A DNA stretch of 46,302 nt from contig JAPOXY010000155.1 of NCBI GenBank assembly GCA_026706845.1, positions 1-46,302 of the forward strand, given 5' to 3'. The translations under genes were made by a program, and so were the position numbers. The notes beneath the pieces were generated by a model. It was given only the letters and a program-made list of their open reading frames with translations, made no database searches and was not told the DNA's origin. Position 1 is the stretch's first letter. Each line of letters opens with the position of its first letter. Positions 34,384-46,302 of the stretch are shown in pieces. This DNA comes from Gemmatimonadota bacterium (GTDB lineage Bacteria; Latescibacterota; UBA2968).

Positions 34384-35559
34384 TTAATGATGGAACAAAC
34401 GCACCCCGGTCATAACCAGAAGCATACCGTATTCATCACAGGCTGCGATAACATCGTCGTCGCGCACGGAGCCCCCGGTCTCAACCACGTATTTGACACC
34501 CGTGCGAGCGGCGCGATCAATATTATCTCGAAAGGGAATAAACGCATCGGAACTGAGCACAATCTCGTCCATCTGTCCAATCCACCCTCGCCGCGCCTTC
34601 TCCTTCAAAGGAGAAGGCACAGTATCGAAACAACCTTCCCAAATCCGACGTTCCTCACGCGTCATATTGCCGCGCAAATAAGCTTCAATAGCGTTGATCT
34701 TTTCGGGACGCTTTAGCCCTCTTCTAAATTTGAAATTGAGAATATCCGGATGCTGGCGCAAATACCACGCTTCGGCCTTACCCGCGGCAATCTCCGTACA
34801 CGCCAGACGATTTTGCTGCCCGGCACCATTGCCGATAACCTGTCCATCAAAGGCAAAACACATCGAATTGGACTGCGTGTACTTCAGAACAAGAGTCGCC
34901 ACGAGCATATCGCGCTCTGATTCGGGAGAAACCTCTTTATTCTTTGTCACAATATTCGTTAAAATATCCGTATTAATGGCTTTGGTATTGCGCGTCTGTT
35001 CCAGAACAATGCCAAAAACATCGCGAGACTCCGGGCCAGCAGGCGCATATGATTCATCCATCTGAAGAATGGGATAACTGCCGCCTTTTTTCTTCTTGAG
35101 AATATCGAACGCCTCCGGTTGATACCCCGGAGCAATAATGCCATCGGACACTTCGCGGCTGAGCAAACGCGCAGTCGGTTGATCCACCTCATCACTCAAA
35201 GCCACCCAGTCGCCAAAAGAGGATAGCCTATCCGCACCCCGAGCGCGGGCATAAGCCGTAGCCAGAGGCGAAAGATCGAGATCATCGACAAAATACGCCC
35301 TTTGCAGCGCATCGGAAATGGGAACAGCAACAGCCGCACCAGCAGGGCTTAAGTGTTTGAAAGACGCGGCTGCCGGCAGATTGAGCACCTCTTTAAGCTC
35401 GCGCACGAGTTGCCAGGAATTGAGCGCGTCGAGCAGGTTGATATAACCCGGCGCTCCATTGAGCACCGTAAAGGGCAATTTGCCACTGGGAGAGTACGCA
35501 CGCGCATCAGATTGATGCGGATTGCAACCATAGCGCAGAGTCAGTCCATCTTGAGACAT
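34384..35559 (-). CDS. Stand-alone AICAR formyltransferase (PurH transformylase domain)
   Basis: 391 aa. Catalyses 10-formyl-THF-dependent formylation of AICAR, the ninth step of purine synthesis. 'LTLRYGCNPHQSDARAYSPS' and 'AAASFKHLSPAGAAVAVPIS' (K-H in the active site), 'LKYTQSNSMCFAFDGQVIGN' and 'GAGQQNRLACTEIAAGKAEA' (the conserved 'GAGQQSR' segment) identify the domain. Usual PurH is about 520 aa with an N-terminal IMP cyclohydrolase (MGS-like) domain that is absent here; the start at ATG 35559 (AAAAGGA upstream) fits the domain start. The cyclohydrolase must come from elsewhere. Confidence 0.93.
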   Translation of the reverse strand: MSQDGLTLRYGCNPHQSDARAYSPSGKLPFTVLNGAPGYINLLDALNSWQLVRELKEVLNLPAAASFKHLSPAGAAVAVPISDALQRAYFVDDLDLSPLATAYARARGADRLSSFGDWVALSDEVDQPTARLLSREVSDGIIAPGYQPEAFDILKKKKGGSYPILQMDESYAPAGPESRDVFGIVLEQTRNTKAINTDILTNIVTKNKEVSPESERDMLVATLVLKYTQSNSMCFAFDGQVIGNGAGQQNRLACTEIAAGKAEAWYLRQHPDILNFKFRRGLKRPEKINAIEAYLRGNMTREERRIWEGCFDTVPSPLKEKARRGWIGQMDEIVLSSDAFIPFRDNIDRAARTGVKYVVETGGSVRDDDVIAACDEYGMLLVMTGVRLFHH

Positions 35560-35659: not shown

Positions 35660-35692
35660 AAAAAAAGCCCAATCCTATAGCGGATTGAGCCC
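35660..35692 (-). terminator. Rho-independent terminator
   Basis: On the minus strand GCTCAATCC pairs with GGATTGGGC around GCTATA and is followed by TTTTTTTG. It ends transcription of the AAA ATPase gene at 35819. Confidence 0.85.
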
Positions 35693-35818
35693 AGGCGATC
35701 GACCCCTTAAATTTTAGTTCTAACGCTTCCTTCCGGTCATTTCCGGATATTCGCCAGTTGCGTCAGATACAATTGGTAGAATCAATATAACGGGAGACTA
35801 CATATATGTCAACAGTCA

Positions 35819-38585: not shown

Positions 38586-39296
38586 CTATCGTTTTTTCCC
38601 CACAAAAAAAGGACCCAGCGATTCGACATAAAGTGCAGTTTGTTGGGTCTTTCTCATATCCTGCACAACGCGAGAGAGCGGATAGAGTTCTGCACCGATC
38701 AAACCAATGACAAAATCATTGTCATCGGCATCGAGACCATAGCTGGCCAGGCGAATATCGTGCGCGTAATCTTCGCGTCCATAAGCGCGTCCAATAGAAG
38801 CGTGCTCCATCAAAATTTTGCGCTGTTCCCTGTGATCGAGACGGGCAAAAGCCCCATTGCGACGCAGCGGGTACCAAATCGCCCACGGCCATTCGGGATT
38901 GAGCACATTATCGCGCGGTCGATCGATAAGCGCGTATTCGAGATCTGGCTCATAACCCGTGGCATACGTGCGACCGAGCATCGTAAGTTCAGGACGACGT
39001 GTACAGACAGAGAATGGATCGCCATTGAGCAAAACGCGAATATCCGTAACAAACAAATCCGGCGATTCCGTCAAAAAAACAATGCCAATGCCGCAGGGAT
39101 CGTGCGCATCGAGATAGAGCGCGGCATCGAGACCGCTTTGATCGAGCGCCTCAGATACAGCATCGACATCCCTGACACCCGTAAAAACCTGCAACTGCAT
39201 GTAAAGCCGCCGATCACTCGTTTGCGGTTTCCCATCAACAGGCGCGCCGTGTTCGAGGATATCGAGTTTTTCTCTCGATTCAGTAGAATAATGCAC
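38586..39296 (-). CDS. Chlorite dismutase / coproheme decarboxylase (HemQ) family protein
   Basis: 236 aa, GTG 39296 with GGAAGG 9 bp upstream. The C-terminal half carries the family's heme-binding pattern: 'PWAIWYPLRRNGAFARLDHR', 'EQRKILMEHASIGRAYGRED' with the proximal-type His (about 170), 'LASYGLDADDNDFVIGLIGA' and 'MRKTQQTALYVESLGPFFVG'. This is closest to HemQ-type coproheme decarboxylases, which finish heme synthesis; the degenerate N-terminal half makes chlorite activity unlikely. The true substrate is not settled. It shares a convergent gap with the SDR pair. Confidence 0.85.
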   Translation of the reverse strand: MHYSTESREKLDILEHGAPVDGKPQTSDRRLYMQLQVFTGVRDVDAVSEALDQSGLDAALYLDAHDPCGIGIVFLTESPDLFVTDIRVLLNGDPFSVCTRRPELTMLGRTYATGYEPDLEYALIDRPRDNVLNPEWPWAIWYPLRRNGAFARLDHREQRKILMEHASIGRAYGREDYAHDIRLASYGLDADDNDFVIGLIGAELYPLSRVVQDMRKTQQTALYVESLGPFFVGKKR

Positions 39297-39445: not shown

Positions 39446-41647
39446 TTAAAAGAAAAACATCTTGTAATGCACTTTAATGCTCCGCCCTGTTTCGGGCATC
39501 ACGGATCGAATGCGCGAGAGATGGTTGCGGTATTCCGTATCCAAAAGGTTGTCCAAAGAGAGAATAATACTATGGCGAGTATGGTTGGTATTAATATCGC
39601 GCTGGGCAGAGACACTGAAAACAGCATAGCCATCCGTAGGCTCTTCGAATATATCCACCCGCTCCTGTCCTGCGACCAACTCTGCAGTCCCGCCAACCGT
39701 AAGATAGGGATGCTGATATGTCGCACTGCCCACAAACTTGAGCGGTGGCATCTCGGGCAGAGGCAAATGCTCATCCCTGTTCTCTCCACGCACATAACTA
39801 CCGTTTAATTCCAGATTCAAACGGGTATTTAAACGCCACCCCAAATGCATCTCCAGACCCAAAAATCGCGCGGCAACACCATCGGCAGCGTAAATCGGCA
39901 GCAGTTGGGCAAAATTGATCTCTCCGGTATTGCGCGGGGCAATATAGGTATCAAACTCGTTCCAATATCCACTCAAAACAAAATCGATACCCGGTTGCAA
40001 ATAGTGAAAAAAGACCTCAAAGCCCAGACTCGTCTCGGCCTCGAGATCGACATTACCCACCTCAAAAGTGTAAGCAGCCAGATGCGGTCCATCGTTATAA
40101 AGCTCTTCAATAGTAGGCTCCCGCTGGGATCGGCTGAAATTGAAACCCCCAGTTAGCTGGTCGGTAATGTTCACAAGCGGACTGATTGCCGCAGACCAGG
40201 CGTGAAAGGTGCGACCTACACCGAGAGCCGCAATACTCCTTGTCGTCGGACGCGGATCAAAGTCGGCATACGTATAACGCGCAGAAGCCTGAAATTCGAT
40301 ATCGCGATAAATAAATTCGTGGTAGAGACCTAAGGAAGCGCATTGCTCTCGCGTGGGCGGCGTAAAAACAAACCCCCCCAATTTGAGATTGTGATGACCA
40401 AAGCCCAGAGACAGAACGGTATTTCGCGTCTGACCCTGTGTGTTCATAAGCAACTTGAGATCACCGCGGTAGTCGTGGAACAAAAACTCAGACCCAATAC
40501 TGCCGCTGGACTCGTACTCAAAGTGGTGATAGAAGGTCCTGGTAAAATCCACCTCTACACTACTGAACACCTTGTGATCAAAATGGTAGGCCGCCCTGCC
40601 ATCAAACACGCGGCGATCAATATCCAGATCTACGCCATTGGGATGTCCGCCAATAAAGCCACCGGGAATGCCGTACTGCGTATCGAACTGATCAAACGAG
40701 GCACCGATATATCCCCGATCAGTGGGATACGACAGACCAAGTGTATGCGTGCGCGTGTCAATCGGTGTGTTGACAAGCCTGCCAATAGGCGTTTGCACAT
40801 CCCGGGTATTGCGGTACGTGGTCTCGACATACAGCGCGAGCGGACCTACGGGCACTGTAATACCAGCGGCTGAGAGATACCCGCGATTAACCGTCTCTCC
40901 ATAAGCACCAACACTGCCAAAAACGCGCTGCGGATAGTCTTCCGGTATCTTCTGTTTCACGACATTGATAACCCCACCAATAGCCGATGCCGTGTGAAGC
41001 AGTATGCGCGGCCCCCGGATAATTTCGAGGCGTTCTGAATTAAAAGGCTCAAGCGTAACCGCGTGATCAGCAGAAGTAGCGGAAAGATCCCGAGTCTCCA
41101 TACCATCTATATTGATCTGCACGCGGTCGCCACTGAGACCGCGTATAACTGGTCGAGCGGGAGCAGGTCCCATGCTGCGGATAGCGACGCCGATTTCGTT
41201 TTTCATCGTCTCGGCAAGCGTGAGACTATACTTCTTCTGAAGCTCATCTCCAGAAAGCACGCCAGTCGCTTCGTACAATTCTTCAAAGCGCGTCTCTGCA
41301 CTTTTTCCTACCACCACAATGGTATCCGCAACAATTTCCCGGGCAACCATTTCGACGTATAGAATGGGCAATTTCTCATCCGAAACCCTTATTTTCCGAC
41401 TCACCAATCCATACCCGACACGAAAAAAAGACAGGCGATGAACGCCCTGCGACAGACGCAAGACAAAACGGCCCCGATCATCGGTTGTCGTGCTCGTTGC
41501 GCCATCATCGAGTATGATATCGACATTGTCAATTGTGCGTTGGGTCTTGTGATCAAAAACATATCCCTCGAGCAAACGCATTTCACTCGATGCGCTGATC
41601 GCGGAAAAGCAGACCACAAAAACGAGAATGAAGGCTGTAAATCTCAA
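39446..41647 (-). CDS. TonB-dependent outer-membrane receptor (ZnuD-like)
   Basis: 733 aa. The best start is TTG 41647, 6 nt after AGGAGG; the longer frame to 41785 includes the terminator. Signal peptide about 1-22 ('LRFTAFILVFVVCFSAISAS'). A carboxypeptidase-like regulatory fold (about 25-100, 'LLEGYVFDHKTQRTIDNVDI') is followed by a plug: 'RPVIRGLSGDRVQINIDGME' and 'SADHAVTLEPFNSERLEIIR' (about 190-230), then a 22-strand barrel with 'AELVAGQERVDIFEEPTDGY' and the C-terminal Phe 'KVHYKMFFF'. His-rich insert 'DFTRTFYHHFEYES'. Similar to the zinc/heme receptor ZnuD by plug motif; substrate inferred from neighbours. Confidence 0.92.
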   Translation of the reverse strand: MRFTAFILVFVVCFSAISASSEMRLLEGYVFDHKTQRTIDNVDIILDDGATSTTTDDRGRFVLRLSQGVHRLSFFRVGYGLVSRKIRVSDEKLPILYVEMVAREIVADTIVVVGKSAETRFEELYEATGVLSGDELQKKYSLTLAETMKNEIGVAIRSMGPAPARPVIRGLSGDRVQINIDGMETRDLSATSADHAVTLEPFNSERLEIIRGPRILLHTASAIGGVINVVKQKIPEDYPQRVFGSVGAYGETVNRGYLSAAGITVPVGPLALYVETTYRNTRDVQTPIGRLVNTPIDTRTHTLGLSYPTDRGYIGASFDQFDTQYGIPGGFIGGHPNGVDLDIDRRVFDGRAAYHFDHKVFSSVEVDFTRTFYHHFEYESSGSIGSEFLFHDYRGDLKLLMNTQGQTRNTVLSLGFGHHNLKLGGFVFTPPTREQCASLGLYHEFIYRDIEFQASARYTYADFDPRPTTRSIAALGVGRTFHAWSAAISPLVNITDQLTGGFNFSRSQREPTIEELYNDGPHLAAYTFEVGNVDLEAETSLGFEVFFHYLQPGIDFVLSGYWNEFDTYIAPRNTGEINFAQLLPIYAADGVAARFLGLEMHLGWRLNTRLNLELNGSYVRGENRDEHLPLPEMPPLKFVGSATYQHPYLTVGGTAELVAGQERVDIFEEPTDGYAVFSVSAQRDINTNHTRHSIILSLDNLLDTEYRNHLSRIRSVMPETGRSIKVHYKMFFF

Positions 41648-41660
41648 AACATACCTCCTA

Positions 41661-41703
41661 TAAAAAGCCCTCACCCGGTCTTTCAAAAACAGGGTGAGGG
41701 CAA
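41661..41703 (-). terminator. Terminator between the lipoprotein and TonB genes
   Basis: On the minus strand GCCCTCACCC pairs with GGGTGAGGGC (a strong 10-bp stem) and is followed by TTTTT. It ends just before the TTG start of the receptor, so the receptor may depend on read-through or its own promoter. Confidence 0.8.
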
Positions 41704-41711
41704 AGCAGTTA

Positions 41712-42200
41712 CTACCCTCCGACATGCACCGGAATGGGAATGGTGCGAAAATCCACATGATCGTCGTGCGTGACCTGGAGTTCAATCGTAGTTTCGCCTA
41801 CCTTGAGACCCCGCAGGTGAAAATCAAACTTGCCGACATCATCGGCATCCTGAACAACTTCCAAAACCGTGGGATCGGCAATCGCCCATGTAAATTTGAA
41901 ATCCGGATCATCTGGCGGGTCAATCTCGTCGCCATCTTCATCCAGAAAACGGATGCTCCAGTGCGACGTTTCCTCATTGAGAGGGGCGTCGAGATGATCT
42001 TTCCGACCACCGCTGGCATCGATCTGCCCTCGAAAATAGCGAAAAAAACGATTGCCCGAATCTATAATAACCAGACCCTCGGGTTCAAAATGCTCTTCCT
42101 GGTGAGACGTGGGATCGTCACTACCACAACCGATCACAAACAAAGTCAGAACTGCCACAGCGGTGAAAATGCGTTGAAACGAGTTTTTTCTAAAAAACAT
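41712..42200 (-). CDS. Uncharacterised lipoprotein next to the TonB receptor
   Basis: 162 aa, ATG 42200 with TCAGGAGA upstream. Signal peptide and lipobox 'LTLFVIGCGSDDPTSHQEEH' (Cys about 25), so it is a lipoprotein. The rest, 'FEPEGLVIIDSGNRFFRYFR', 'HWSIRFLDEDGDEIDPPDDP' and 'GLKVGETTIELQVTHDDHVD', is a beta-sandwich with acidic and His residues. From memory, a family with 'HxEPEGLVL...IPVHV' ends lies beside TonB receptors in marine bacteria. A periplasmic or surface metal-binding partner is plausible. Confidence 0.8.
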   Translation of the reverse strand: MFFRKNSFQRIFTAVAVLTLFVIGCGSDDPTSHQEEHFEPEGLVIIDSGNRFFRYFRGQIDASGGRKDHLDAPLNEETSHWSIRFLDEDGDEIDPPDDPDFKFTWAIADPTVLEVVQDADDVGKFDFHLRGLKVGETTIELQVTHDDHVDFRTIPIPVHVGG

Positions 42201-42324
42201 GATAGTCTCCTGAATAAGCCCGCACGGGCAGAGAACACGCAGAGGGATCCCCTCTTATGCCCGCACAAAAAGGCACAAAAATACAGAAAAATAATGCAAA
42301 CTTTAGTATTGAGATATTCAGTAT

Positions 42325-42621
42325 TCAGGAAACTACTGGAGGAGATCGGCTCTGAGGTGAAAGGAAAAACTGGTGGGATAAAAATGTGGGATGCGGCAGA
42401 GCGAAAAAATAACAGGCGTATAATGCACCAGAAGTCAATACATCACTGATAAGACCACTAAAGCTATAAATCCAATGGCAAACGAAGCAATGGGTGTCAT
42501 GTTCATCATGGTCACCATGTTCACCATGGTCAACCGCATGCCCAAAGGCAAGGGCAAACGCGCCGACGAGCAATATGACGATCAGCGTTTTAACGAGCGG
42601 GTGTCTGGTGTAGAAATTCAT
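42325..42621 (-). CDS. Small His-rich membrane protein (DUF2946-like)
   Basis: 98 aa. A hydrophobic N-terminal helix ('LVKTLIVILLVGAFALAFGH') is followed by a His/Asp-rich run 'AVDHGEHGDHDEHDTHCFVC', with Cys-x-x-Cys and His, then a second helix ('GLISDVLTSGALYACYFFAL'). Similar layouts occur in DUF2946-type proteins next to metal transporters. It probably binds Zn(II) or Cu. The assignment is by layout; no strong ribosome site is seen. Confidence 0.7.
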   Translation of the reverse strand: MNFYTRHPLVKTLIVILLVGAFALAFGHAVDHGEHGDHDEHDTHCFVCHWIYSFSGLISDVLTSGALYACYFFALPHPTFLSHQFFLSPQSRSPPVVS

Positions 42622-42674
42622 TTTTAATACTATATGGGGCTACCTCGAGCAAAAATAGTTGTCTATCAATGCGC

Positions 42675-43127
42675 CTATTTGTCCCCTGCGGAATGCGCTC
42701 GTAATTGTCTAATCGATTGCAATCGCAAAAGCAATTTTTCGAGATTTGATTTTAGCTCTTTTTGGATCTCGACCATTTGCTCGGGTGTCACCTGTAGATC
42801 TTCTTTTTCGTGATGGTGTCCATGACCGTGATCATGGGCCTCTGCCGAGTCATCTCCCGGCACTTCAACCACATTTTTTTCCCACAATTCAAAGTCTTTT
42901 TCGATAACCTGAAGACTATCGCGTATTTCCACAGCATGATGTGAAAATGACTTTAGACTATCCAGTTGGCTCTCAAATTGCTTTTCAATTTCCATCATCG
43001 CCTTGTGAATATCTGCCGCCTGTTGCAAGTGGTGTGCATCTTCTTTATTTTCTCCATGGCAAGAAACAAAGAACGCAAACACTATAACACTTATCACTTT
43101 GAGTCGCATTGGATTTTGTCTCTCCAT
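42675..43127 (-). CDS. His-rich lipoprotein (putative metal-binding)
   Basis: 150 aa from ATG 43127 (GGAGAC upstream; a second ATG at 43109 also has a GGAGA site). Lipobox in 'VISVIVFAFFVSCHGENKED' (Cys about 23). A coiled coil (about 28-80) is followed by 'SAEAHDHGHGHHHEKEDLQV', a zinc-type His cluster (about 92-111), and a second helix ('EQMVEIQKELKSNLEKLLLR'). It resembles periplasmic zinc-sequestering loops. Upstream of the MerC-like gene in the same direction. Confidence 0.8.
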   Translation of the reverse strand: MERQNPMRLKVISVIVFAFFVSCHGENKEDAHHLQQAADIHKAMMEIEKQFESQLDSLKSFSHHAVEIRDSLQVIEKDFELWEKNVVEVPGDDSAEAHDHGHGHHHEKEDLQVTPEQMVEIQKELKSNLEKLLLRLQSIRQLRAHSAGDK

Positions 43128-43155
43128 ATTTTACGTCTCCTTTCGCGTGTTTATC

Positions 43156-43554
43156 CTATTTTTCACAATCATCTTTGCGACATAAATGATGATTCCGAAT
43201 ATGGCCTGAGATCAAAAATCCCGACCCTAAAACGGTCCCCACCCGTTCCCCTATTTCCCCAAAAAGATCATGGCCAACCATAACCATTATGACGAGAAGG
43301 GACAGCCCGAGGATACCGAAACCAATGACAAATTGATCTTTATGAAGGCGACACCCCAATCCAAGAGCAAGAATACTGGTGGGCAGAATCAGCCACATCA
43401 AAAGCCCATGAAAATGTTCATCGCCAACAAACGTAGTTGCCAACAACGGAAACGCAATAAGTGCAACAGGCAATGTCAAGCAATGGATCGCACACATTGT
43501 TGAAAGAACAATGGCAATTTTATCACCTGCGGTTTGATAGCTCAAACGCGCCAT
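43156..43554 (-). CDS. MerC-domain membrane protein
   Basis: 132 aa, AGGAGATAATAA before ATG 43554. Four predicted helices. 'AIVLSTMCAIHCLTLPVALI' (Cys-x3-His-Cys in helix 1) and 'HFHGLLMWLILPTSILALGL' match MerC (PF03203); the tail 'ISGHIRNHHLCRKDDCEK' has the family's H-x-x-N-x-x-L-C. MerC proteins carry Hg(II) in mer operons; several homologues occur in zinc-responsive loci instead. No merA here, so zinc or another metal is favoured. Confidence 0.88.
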   Translation of the reverse strand: MARLSYQTAGDKIAIVLSTMCAIHCLTLPVALIAFPLLATTFVGDEHFHGLLMWLILPTSILALGLGCRLHKDQFVIGFGILGLSLLVIMVMVGHDLFGEIGERVGTVLGSGFLISGHIRNHHLCRKDDCEK

Positions 43555-43589
43555 TTATTATCTCCTTCTTATTCATAATAACGACACAA

Positions 43590-44120
43590 TTAATATGTAT
43601 CACCAGGATTGTTTTTCATATCGCGCTTATCCATCACCTCGGCTTTGCTGATGCGAAAAAAGAGTTCGGACGGATCTTTTTGCAACAGTTCCAGACGACC
43701 TGTAATAGTAACGGGATAATAAGTAAAATCAATCGGTTTGCTCGGGTGAACATCTACAAGAGACTCAGGCCCACCTCCGCCTACACAAAAAGAACATCCC
43801 CCAAGTGAATACGGAGTCAAAACAAAACGCGCCTGTTTTTTTTGAGCCGATAGCGGAATCATAAACCCGACAAGCTCGACGTGTTTGCCATTCATTTTTT
43901 TCAACGTATCGGAAAATATGGGTATAAAGGTCGGCGCATAGGGATCATAACTCACCGTCGCAAGGGTTTCCCAAAGCGAACCCTTCATCATCTGGGGCAG
44001 TGGAGACGCCTGAAGTTCTGGGCGATGGTCTGTTGACGAGGGCGGTGTCTCACTGCCAGTATCTATTCTCAAAACCACAGCAAATAATAAAATAAACATT
44101 ACCGTGCGTTGTATATTCAT
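43590..44120 (-). CDS. DUF3299 periplasmic protein
   Basis: 176 aa from ATG 44120 (TGATG overlap with the permease stop). Signal peptide-like start 'TVMFILLFAVVLRIDTGSET'. DUF3299 core: 'WETLATVSYDPYAPTFIPIF', 'KHVELVGFMIPLSAQKKQAR', 'FVLTPYSLGGCSFCVGGGGP' with C-x-x-C, and 'YYPVTITGRLELLQKDPSEL'. In Pseudomonas aeruginosa, as I recall, a DUF3299 gene sits with a MacB-like ABC transporter in a zinc-starvation operon, matching this order. Likely periplasmic, maybe metal-handling. Confidence 0.88.
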   Translation of the reverse strand: MNIQRTVMFILLFAVVLRIDTGSETPPSSTDHRPELQASPLPQMMKGSLWETLATVSYDPYAPTFIPIFSDTLKKMNGKHVELVGFMIPLSAQKKQARFVLTPYSLGGCSFCVGGGGPESLVDVHPSKPIDFTYYPVTITGRLELLQKDPSELFFRISKAEVMDKRDMKNNPGDTY

Positions 44121-45394
44121 CACGATACCTCCACCAGTGTTTGTGCAACATCTGTCCGATAGACCTGAAGCGCCGGTATAAGAGCCGATACACTACCCAA
44201 CACAAGCGCCAGACCAATGAGCCAGAATTCATCGGACACAATAATCCATCCCGTCAAATTTATATGCTGTGCCTCGCGCACCCATACGCCAATCACCTCA
44301 GTGCTTGCATGCCCAAGCACAAAACCCAACCCCGTGCCCATCAGTGTAAGCAAGACCCCCTCCAAAAGCACCTGAACAAAAAGTTTGCCGCGACTTGCCC
44401 CCAGAGCACGCATCATAGCCAGATCGTATCGCCGATCTTTCATCGCATTATAAAGTGCCACAAAAATGCTCAACGCCGCTGCAAACACCAGAACCCCACC
44501 AAAAACCCGCACCACCTCCAACCCAACACCGAGCAATGCAAAAAGGCGCGTTGTCTCAAATGCGGGGGACGCAGCCTGAAATTTGGTCTCTTTATTAACA
44601 TACCTCGGAAATGACACGGCTGCAATAGGTGAACGATAGCGAATCAACAAACCCGTAACTTCGCGCTCGGCATCGGCTTCACTGTCCATCGGCAAACCCA
44701 GAACATCGCGTGCGCGGTTCTCATCGGCCTGGCTCTCCAGGTGGTGATCCAGTCCATCGCCCTCTTCTTCATGCGGTTCGTGAACCAGCCAGACGGTTTC
44801 CACAGCAGTCAGTAACAGACGGTCGATAATCGAACCCGTTGGTTGCAAAACACCCACCACGCGAAACGGTTGCGATTCGTGTTGTTCAGAAGCCGTTTCT
44901 GCGGTCAAACCGTGCGAACTAATAACCTCGTCACCCAGCGCAAGACCCGTCTCGTTGGCAACCTGCGCGCCTATAACCACCTGGTATGGTGCATCCCAAA
45001 AGGTACCATCAACCAATTCCGCCCGGTAGTGTTTGGCGTATTCGGACGTCGTTCCCACAATGCGATATCCCCGATAATTATCCCCCAACGCCAGGGGTAT
45101 CGCCTGTGCAACCGCTCTGTTTTTTGCCAGTTCACGCGCCTCTAAAAGCGGTATATTTCCCGTTGGCACATCAACGTGAAAGACACTGGATAAAATCAAT
45201 TGCAAAGGACTGCCCTTAGCACCCACAACGACATCGATATTTTGAACATTGCGGTGCAAATTCTCTTCAAATTGTTCGCCAAAAAGCAACAAAACAACGA
45301 CAATACCCGTTCCAAGTCCCAACAATATCATATTGAGCAATGTATTCAACTTGCGCCGATAAATATAGGCCAGACTAATTTTGAAGAGATTCAT
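44120..45394 (-). CDS. ABC transporter permease (FtsX/MacB type)
   Basis: 424 aa. TM1 near 17-40 ('LNTLLNMILLGLGTGIVVVL'), a large periplasmic MacB-PCD domain (about 45-290, starting 'NIDVVVGAKGSPLQLILSSV'), then three helices (about 295-415) with the FtsX-type 'DRRYDLAMMRALGASRGKLF' loop. MacB-type permeases move substrates in the periplasm by mechanotransmission rather than classical import. ATGA overlap with the ATPase gene; TGATG overlap with DUF3299. Confidence 0.94.
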   Translation of the reverse strand: MNLFKISLAYIYRRKLNTLLNMILLGLGTGIVVVLLLFGEQFEENLHRNVQNIDVVVGAKGSPLQLILSSVFHVDVPTGNIPLLEARELAKNRAVAQAIPLALGDNYRGYRIVGTTSEYAKHYRAELVDGTFWDAPYQVVIGAQVANETGLALGDEVISSHGLTAETASEQHESQPFRVVGVLQPTGSIIDRLLLTAVETVWLVHEPHEEEGDGLDHHLESQADENRARDVLGLPMDSEADAEREVTGLLIRYRSPIAAVSFPRYVNKETKFQAASPAFETTRLFALLGVGLEVVRVFGGVLVFAAALSIFVALYNAMKDRRYDLAMMRALGASRGKLFVQVLLEGVLLTLMGTGLGFVLGHASTEVIGVWVREAQHINLTGWIIVSDEFWLIGLALVLGSVSALIPALQVYRTDVAQTLVEVS

Positions 45395-46044
45395 GCGGGC
45401 AATTCCATCTGTTCATCAAGCGCAATACAATGGTCAAAACTATCGGTAATGCGATGATCATGTGACGCCACCACCAGAGTTGCCTGAACCTCTCGCGCCG
45501 ATGACGTGAGCAAATCCAACACCTGCTTGCTGCGCGCGTCATCCAATCCAGATGTCGGCTCATCGGCCAACAGCAATTGGGGGCGGTTAACAACAGCCCG
45601 GGCGATTGCCACGCGCTGTTGTTGACCAAAACTCAGTTCCGATGGATAAGCGTGTTCGCGGCCTGCCAGACCGAGAGTCGCAAGCACCTGTTGGACACGC
45701 GCTTTATCCTGCGGAACACCGGCCATATAATGCGCCATAAGCAAATTTTCCAGCACCGTAAAAACCGGGAACAGGTGAAATTGTTGAAAAACAATGCCAA
45801 TGCGTTGCCCGCGAAATCGATCGCGAGCAGTCTCTGTCATTGCATAAATATCCTGTTTGGCAATATGCACACTGCCCTGTGAGGGCTTTAACAAACCGGC
45901 GATAATATGCAAAAGCGTCGTCTTCCCGCTTCCCGATGGCCCATGCAACAGCCATTTTTCATCGGGCTGGGCCTCAATATATTCTGGCAAGTCCAATACA
46001 AGACGACTGCCATAAACATGCCCAACGTGTTTAAGTGCAAACAT
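45391..46044 (-). CDS. ABC transporter ATP-binding protein (MacB/LolD type)
   Basis: 217 aa. Walker A 'LHGPSGSGKTTLLHIIAGLL' (about 33-52), Q-loop 'IGIVFQQFHLFPVFTVLENL', signature 'LSFGQQQRVAIARAVVNRPQ' (about 137-156), Walker B 'LLLADEPTSGLDDARSKQVL' and H-loop 'ATLVVASHDHRITDSFDH'. All complete. Partner of the FtsX-type permease, coupled by a 4-bp overlap. LolD/MacB-like ATPases drive periplasmic export or lipoprotein release. No good ribosome-binding site upstream of ATG 46044. Confidence 0.95.
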   Translation of the reverse strand: MFALKHVGHVYGSRLVLDLPEYIEAQPDEKWLLHGPSGSGKTTLLHIIAGLLKPSQGSVHIAKQDIYAMTETARDRFRGQRIGIVFQQFHLFPVFTVLENLLMAHYMAGVPQDKARVQQVLATLGLAGREHAYPSELSFGQQQRVAIARAVVNRPQLLLADEPTSGLDDARSKQVLDLLTSSAREVQATLVVASHDHRITDSFDHCIALDEQMELPA

Positions 46045-46124
46045 GAGATAGTATTCAAAAAATGCGATGTGTGACTTCTAAATGTTACGAGGCCGTCAAA
46101 ATCGAACGGATGAGGCAGTTTCGG

Positions 46125-46302
46125 TCATTCTGACTCCTCGACCATGATAAGCTCCGGAAACGGGTTCCGCAACCCTGTCCAGGTCTTGCTGTTAGCGGAG
46201 GCGAGGCGCTCGTCGAGCAGGCATGCATCGAGGCGAGCGCGCATCGCCGCCTCGTGCATCTGCTGGCCGATGAAGACAAGTTGTTGCGCGCGATCGCCGA
46301 AG
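46125..46302 (-). CDS. CobW/COG0523-family GTPase, C-terminal fragment at window edge
   Basis: The last 58 codons of a gene that enters from the right edge and stops at TGA (46127-46125). It reads 'FGDRAQQLVFIGQQMHEAAM', then 'RARLDACLLDERLASANSKT' and 'NPFPELIMVEESE'. G-D-R-x-Q-x-L-V-F-I-G is the CobW_C hallmark found in COG0523 metallochaperones, which deliver zinc or cobalt and are often induced by zinc shortage. The fragment is clearly GC-richer than its neighbours. Lies 80 bp before the ABC ATPase gene on the same strand. Confidence 0.88.
   Translation of the reverse strand, partial: FGDRAQQLVFIGQQMHEAAMRARLDACLLDERLASANSKTWTGLRNPFPELIMVEESE

Follow-up and report, generated by a model that had tools for sequence, protein, structure and literature searches.

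What does a MacB-type ATP-binding cassette (ABC) transporter do in a gene cluster whose other members point to zinc? The question is raised by bp 39446–46302 of the stretch of DNA analyzed here (the window), which is the entire contig JAPOXY010000155.1 (46,302 bp; G000:C155) of a genome from Latescibacterota, a little-known, mostly sponge-associated bacterial group. We propose that the locus is probably a two-module zinc-starvation, i.e., zinc-scavenging, cluster, in which the ABC part acts periplasmically rather than as an import channel. Gene content and order, their conservation, the conservation of metal ligands, folds and phylogeny were established directly. A zinc role had been put forward in a sequence-only reading of the window; it is supported by a ZigA-type COG0523 protein, a ZnuD-type TonB-dependent receptor with four zinc ligands, and a Fur-family gene found beside the operon in congeners.

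Gene Order and Its Conservation

The minus strand carries nine consecutive features. Reading inward from the right edge of the window, these are a COG0523 (CobW/ZigA) fragment, an ABC ATPase, a permease, a DUF3299 protein, a MerC-type protein, His-rich proteins of 150 and 98 amino acids (aa), a lipoprotein and a TonB receptor. The order is that given in the sequence-only reading, which is thereby confirmed on this point. The ATPase, permease and DUF3299 genes are joined by 4-bp overlaps. The gaps that follow are 35 bp (DUF3299 to MerC), 28 bp (MerC to the 150-aa gene), 53 bp (150-aa to 98-aa gene) and 124 bp (98-aa gene to lipoprotein), and 64 bp separate the lipoprotein stop from the probable receptor start.

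The same reading called the locus full, which does not hold for the window because the contig ends inside the CobW gene and only the last 58 codons of that gene are left. The window being a whole contig, the gene is cut at its right end; sister contigs have the missing part, as described below.

The gene order is not a chance arrangement, since the permease is kept at 94–98% identity in 9 of the 10 other congeners (11 genus genomes with that of the window) and the neighboring genes are kept in order there at about 60–99% identity. The synteny survey proposed along with the first reading gave the same order in congeners with long enough contigs, and also in the family-level relative G012, which belongs to another genus. 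In one congener (G002; L139, 6997–10409), a second merC-his98-lipoprotein-receptor copy stands in tandem, with the extra MerC truncated.

The Receptor Module

The receptor gene (39446..41647, minus strand) encodes a 733-aa protein with a plug and a barrel. Its start is probably the TTG at 41647, which follows a GGAGG at 41658–41654, rather than 41785. A six-sequence profile of the receptor searched against the PDB gave Neisseria meningitidis ZnuD (4rdr) with an E-value of 7.9e-81, the next match being at 1.2e-23. With a chain offset of 14, D99, H100, E340 and H499 of ZnuD align with D194, H195, E377 and H522 of the 733-aa frame, all four identical; in the 742-aa frame the latter are D203, H204, E386 and H531. 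The four residues are invariant in six aligned receptors. ZnuD binds the bare zinc ion (PMC4557270). ZnuD is the best solved relative, and its buried zinc site is conserved in full. The window receptor differs from ZnuD in having a carboxypeptidase-regulatory-like N-terminal domain, a lipoprotein neighbor and a score below the curated cut-off, as discussed below.

The lipoprotein gene (41712..42200, minus strand) encodes 162 aa, with a VIGC lipobox placing the lipidated cysteine at Cys25, and with H37, D109 and an HxxHxD motif (residues 145–150). In an alignment of 37 copies, H37, D109, H145, H148 and D150 are present in every copy and Cys25 in 36. No Pfam or PDB family fits the protein. It was found in 31 of the 64 phylum genomes surveyed for it, and a ZnuD-type receptor adjoins it in nearly every locus (L145–L181). 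The lipoprotein domain is tandemly repeated in some genomes, including G012 and G017.

Between the two genes lies a terminator-like hairpin (41667..41701, minus strand), GCCCTCACCC...GGGTGAGGGC, followed by TTTTT. It folds in the window and in five congener copies; a pattern scan gives an overlapping shorter stem, 41719–41696. Because the hairpin and its T run are kept in the genus, expression of the receptor may be separate or attenuated. The complete genome of the congener G008 has the receptor module and lacks the MacB module. Since the lipoprotein-receptor pair is spread over the phylum, and since G008 does without the MacB module, the locus is better described as a pair of modules than as an indivisible whole. 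The idea of one unit, if this means a shared transcript, is not supported, given the conserved hairpin before the receptor gene and the gene content of G008.

The MacB-Type ABC Pair

The ATPase (45391..46044, minus strand; 217 aa) is of the FtsE/LolD/DevA type (ABC_tran, 1.1e-35) and is 92–98% identical in congeners. The permease (44120..45394, minus strand; 424 aa) is of the FtsX/MacB type (FtsX, 2.1e-15; MacB_PCD, 2e-14). Its AlphaFold2 model has a predicted local distance difference test (pLDDT) score of 86.7, and the best folds returned by Foldseek were LolE (2.2e-16), the pneumococcal MacB-like permease 5xu1, and MacB (3.7e-15). Model and fold search agree on four helixes, the first of them followed by a large periplasmic domain, as in type VII ABC systems. 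The MacB type had been taken as a sign against ZnuABC-like import, and the LolCDE/MacB fold of the permease supports this. The pair resembles LolCDE and MacB in the permease fold and the FtsX/MacB domains. It differs from them in its single permease gene, its separate ATPase, the lack of a MacA-like adaptor in the annotation of the locus and the lack of a lipoprotein-sorting context. The tripartite exporter arrangement of MacB is therefore not seen here.

In a phylogeny, window-type permeases and those of the Zrg systems discussed below fall on opposite sides of a 100/100 branch. Their signatures differ, being VGAKGSPLQLILSS.FH.D.PTGNI in the window type and VGAR...LLYSVFRIG.AT.N in the Zrg clade, and the window permease is about 31% identical or less to the Zrg type. 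The permease of a family-level relative carries a His-rich loop.

The DUF3299, MerC and His-Rich Proteins

The DUF3299 protein (43590..44123, minus strand; 177 aa) is periplasmic, with an oligonucleotide/oligosaccharide-binding (OB) fold and a CxxC at residues 110/113 (PF11736, 27.8 bits against a cut-off of 22). By sequence alone its PDB match was weak (E = 0.01), and the fold search was decisive: with the AlphaFold2 model, PA4066 of Pseudomonas aeruginosa (4hsp) was the sole match below 1e-3 (E = 7.4e-5). C110 and C113 are invariant in 38 window-type sequences. In Aeromonas and in the relative G040, DUF3299 has GACIHVPPPP or GACLHTPPPP in place of the window-type CxxC.

The MerC-type inner-membrane protein (43156..43554, minus strand; 132 aa) matches PF03203 at E = 2.4e-23 and 83.2 bits, against a cut-off of 27.6. 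We found no literature link of MerC to a zinc regulon.

The 150-aa protein (42675..43127, minus strand; HDHGHGHHHEKED) is a His-rich, helical, putative lipoprotein, kept in the genus. Two Bacteroidota homologues adjoin the same module (E = 1.4e-19 and 1.4e-13). Kinship with a common 140-aa Bacteroidota lipoprotein was considered and is unsupported (hhalign probability 46%). The 98-aa protein (42325..42621, minus strand) is small and His-rich, with an N-terminal hydrophobic stretch and the sequence HDTHCFVCH, and is kept beside the receptor module. Its only match, to DUF2946, is sub-threshold. It was also compared with ZrgD (101 aa, a single helix); the likeness is one of size and motif only, with a similar HTCTLC stretch in Aeromonas, and kinship is not demonstrated.

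The COG0523 Gene and the Fur-Family Regulator

The COG0523 fragment (46125..46301, minus strand) consists of the C-terminal 58 codons and a stop (CobW_C, E = 3.5e-6). When the genome was searched with the CobW domain, three loci elsewhere were returned but not the fragment, which the C-terminal domain model recovered. It is 98% identical to residues 349–406 of a congener's complete 406-aa protein. The equivalog model for ZigA, the COG0523 protein of Acinetobacter baumannii, has a cut-off of 600 bits (NF038288); the window fragment is too short for scoring against it, the congener's full-length protein scores 625 bits, and the G012 copy scores 609. In G006, the complete 406-aa gene stands ahead of the ATPase, preceded by a gene for a WD40 protein, and contigs of G001, G004 and G010 hold part of the COG0523 gene at the same place.

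G002, G003 and G005 lack the WD40-CobW block and have a Fur-family gene immediately upstream of the ATPase gene. The genome of the window has its own Fur gene, which lies, with the beginning of a CbiM-like gene after it, at one end of contig C83 (20,486 bp); we infer that C83 and C155 join. Because the CobW and WD40 genes have a GC content of 61–64%, as against 48% elsewhere, their composition suggests that the block was inserted later between fur and the ATPase gene. On C83 (L134), the genes directly upstream of the Fur gene are for uptake and salvage of B12 (CobO, CbiZ-like, CbiB, BtuD, BtuC).

Preceding fur is a TTGACA promoter overlapped by a 9-1-9 dyad, AGAATTGAT-T-ATCATTTCT, present in seven copies from the congeners and the genome of the window. 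The element AGAATTGATTATCATTTCT would be a candidate binding target for the congener Fur protein. By its sequence, the dyad resembles Fur-family operators and not a canonical Zur box. It is the only conserved operator candidate, and it lies on a different contig than the window, within which the motif does not occur.

A second cluster in G001 (L133; G001:C20, 1–14968) is headed by Fur-family and ZigA genes, followed by receptor, lipoprotein, CobN, MotA/ExbB, DUF2149, BtuF-like and BtuC-like genes and another fur. It resembles the PA1922-1925 operon, which we take to be Zur-regulated.

Comparison with the Zrg and PA4063-PA4066 Systems

Two studied systems combine a MacB-like ABC pair with a DUF3299 gene. 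The Zrg genes of Vibrio (VP_RS01455-01475, and the V. cholerae zrg operon) support growth on low zinc (PMC9817125, PMC9820375). Like the window, ZrgABCDE has a split ATPase and MacB-like permease, a DUF3299 protein (ZrgE), a small protein (ZrgD) and His-rich periplasmic zinc handling. The window differs in lacking ZrgA, i.e., DUF2796, in having a permease of another clade and a DUF3299 with CxxC, and in its additional MerC, ZigA, lipoprotein and ZnuD-type receptor. The first reading had drawn the comparison with a MacB/DUF3299 operon of Pseudomonas, and rightly so, PA4063-PA4066 being such an operon and Zur-regulated (PMC11481552); the fold of PA4066 matches as well. Here the differences are the absence of a PA4063 homologue, the absence of any pyochelin system seen at the locus, and the clustering of receptor and chaperone genes with the ABC genes.

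Is the window system then a member of the Zrg/PA4063-66 family? The DUF3299 gene beside the ABC pair is a family feature that the window shares. DUF2796 (PF10986) is absent from 11 of 11 genus genomes and occurs, among 60 relatives, only in G040 and G045, and the permease is on the other side of the 100/100 branch. Membership is therefore rejected. To judge from its genes, the window system would work like those of the Zrg/PA4063-66 kind, yet it lacks these two features of the family.

Distribution

The permease was found in 13 of the 60 genomes surveyed for it. The class-level Latescibacterota relatives G040 and G045 have the Zrg type (ZrgA, ATPase, permease, DUF3299) together with MerC. In G040, Fur and an AztC-like binding protein precede the cluster, and COG0523 and HisI follow it. 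A counterpart on a Phaeobacter plasmid also begins with a Fur gene, for which the best model is Zur.

In a scan of 11.3 million genome contigs, the window-type permease was found mostly in Bacteroidota, with some in Betaproteobacteria, a Calditrichota bin and bins labeled Geobacteraceae. At the 73 loci outside Latescibacterota, the ATPase precedes the permease in nearly all, and a DUF3299-type gene is nearby in 63. A ZigA-type COG0523 gene is present at the loci of Ohtaekwangia koreensis (L057), L085 and L088, the 150-aa-type His-rich lipoprotein at L088 and L076, and MerC at L076. In Ohtaekwangia koreensis DSM 25262, the L057 genes run ATPase-permease-DUF3299-...-DUF3299-ZigA. A metagenome-assembled genome (MAG) of Burkholderiales (L081) has Fur, COG0523 and a divergent CobW-WD40 at the locus. 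ZnuD-type receptors are found at L065, L068 and L081; in the Betaproteobacterial L065 and L068, the receptor comes shortly after the ATPase-permease-DUF3299 triad. Both of the latter are MAG contigs titled Bordetella parapertussis, a species label that looks doubtful given their content.

Proteins of the ZIP family are encoded in the genus. Its ABC-3 importer is more likely linked to manganese or iron, judging by the DtxR and Feo genes that adjoin it. Within the genus, we saw no Zur-type gene with a ZnuABC next to it.

A Model for the Locus

From these observations we infer the substrate, which would be zinc, the direction and mechanism of the ABC pair, the role of MerC and the regulation, as follows. 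At the outer membrane, the ZnuD-type receptor would bind zinc in its buried Asp-His-Glu-His site and admit it to the periplasm, assisted by the HxxHxD lipoprotein, probably a metal-binding protein, and by the small His/Cys-rich protein. The second module, at the inner membrane and in the periplasm, would comprise the split type VII ABC pair, DUF3299, the His-rich lipoprotein, MerC and the ZigA-type metallochaperone. According to literature cited in PMC9817125, PMC9820375 and PMC11481552, MacB and LolCDE complexes act by mechanotransmission. The ABC complex of the window may likewise spend cytoplasmic ATP on the periplasmic side, conducting no zinc, and zinc bound to the His-rich proteins and to DUF3299, with its CxxC, would thereby be handed over or released. 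Ionic zinc could then enter the cytoplasm via MerC or a ZIP protein and be passed to ZigA. The Fur-family repressor adjoining the operon in congeners would be the likely zinc sensor. For the ABC part, the modeled fold makes periplasmic-side work more likely than an import channel.

Several observations weigh against this model. The NCBIfam ZnuD model NF038289, although the best of all models for the receptor, gives 227.5 bits against a cut-off of 950. The conserved hairpin sets the receptor gene apart. Zur sites were among the checks first proposed, and a scan of the window for canonical Zur boxes gave no excess over chance, which leaves the candidate upstream of fur. The best model for the congener Fur protein is PerR, at a score far below the cut-off, and the protein is not assigned to Zur. 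Receptor-like matches in the Bacteroidota loci are mostly weak. The ABC step is itself unsettled even in the studied systems, as ZrgABC of V. cholerae is read as an importer (PMC9820375) and the P. aeruginosa PA4065/MacB pair as a pyochelin-cobalt exporter (PMC11481552).

The Pseudomonas proposal leads to the best surviving alternative, in which the MacB-type pair exports a metallophore or metal complex and the receptor re-imports the loaded chelator. Besides the pyochelin-cobalt model, the MacB/LolCDE fold of the permease and the B12 genes upstream of fur in the same genome are in its favor. We consider it unlikely, given that the window locus has no metallophore biosynthesis gene and no MacA-like adaptor, and that ZnuD, whose ligands the window receptor shares, takes the bare ion. 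A search for a staphylopine-type opine dehydrogenase found none, though it matched no control either and is uninformative.

Direct zinc import by the ABC pair, the role claimed for ZrgABC, in which the His-rich lipoprotein would serve as binding protein, seems to us a doubtful reading too. Vibrio zrg mutants do lose zinc-limited growth (PMC9817125, PMC9820375), and the His-rich proteins and the His-rich loop of the family-level permease would suit an importer. Set against these are the four-helix type VII permease with its large periplasmic domain, the structural relatives of which are exporters, extractors and mechanotransmitters, the absence of a canonical zinc-binding protein, and the lack of ZrgA in the genus.

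It is improbable that the MacB module has nothing to do with the receptor-lipoprotein pair and came to lie next to it by chance or gene transfer. Their distributions differ (31 of 64 genomes for the lipoprotein, mostly with the receptor, as against 13 of 60 for the permease), G008 has the receptor module only, and the high-GC WD40-CobW insert and the hairpin ahead of the receptor gene fit such a history; but the order recurs in congeners with long enough contigs and in G012, and in the Betaproteobacterial loci L065 and L068 a gene for a ZnuD-type receptor again follows the triad at a short distance.

Least probable is service to another metal (copper, cobalt) or metal detoxification, with MerC and the DUF2946-like protein as parts of it: the name of MerC, the weak DUF2946 match of the 98-aa protein, a copper-receptor model among the receptor's weaker matches, and Sco1, cytochrome c and copper-chaperone-like genes near homologous modules speak for it, but the E-value of ZnuD, the closest receptor, is ahead of the next by more than 50 orders of magnitude, and the ZigA equivalog and the Fur-type regulator also speak against it.

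Other Features of the Window

A chlorite-dismutase family gene (38586..39296, minus strand), HemQ/coproheme decarboxylase-like, lies immediately downstream of the receptor gene, a position kept in congeners. A ZMP/ZTP riboswitch (35682–35771, minus strand; RF01750, 54.6 bits) is upstream of an AICARFT/IMPCHase-like gene (34384–35559). Type I restriction-modification-like genes occupy the left contig end (1–10829, minus strand).

Implications

The role of MacB-like zinc operons is disputed between the Vibrio importer and the Pseudomonas pyochelin-cobalt exporter. The window variant speaks for a role in zinc supply at large rather than one tied to pyochelin, because in phyla where no pyochelin context was seen it keeps the ABC pair and DUF3299, linked to a receptor and a chaperone for zinc. 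A bolder proposal, which we offer tentatively, is that the zinc-linked type VII ABC systems include a second family, split off anciently and found in Latescibacterota, Bacteroidota, Calditrichota and Betaproteobacteria. In its members, ATP would power the transfer of zinc within the periplasm from a set of CxxC DUF3299 and His-rich proteins to MerC; coupled to a ZnuD-type receptor and a new lipoprotein partner, this would provide an outer-membrane-to-cytoplasm route without ZnuABC. Ohtaekwangia koreensis is a cultured organism that carries the variant, in which these ideas are testable. Finally, the HxxHxD lipoprotein encoded beside ZnuD-type receptors has no Pfam family, and it would represent a new kind of partner in zinc uptake across the outer membrane.

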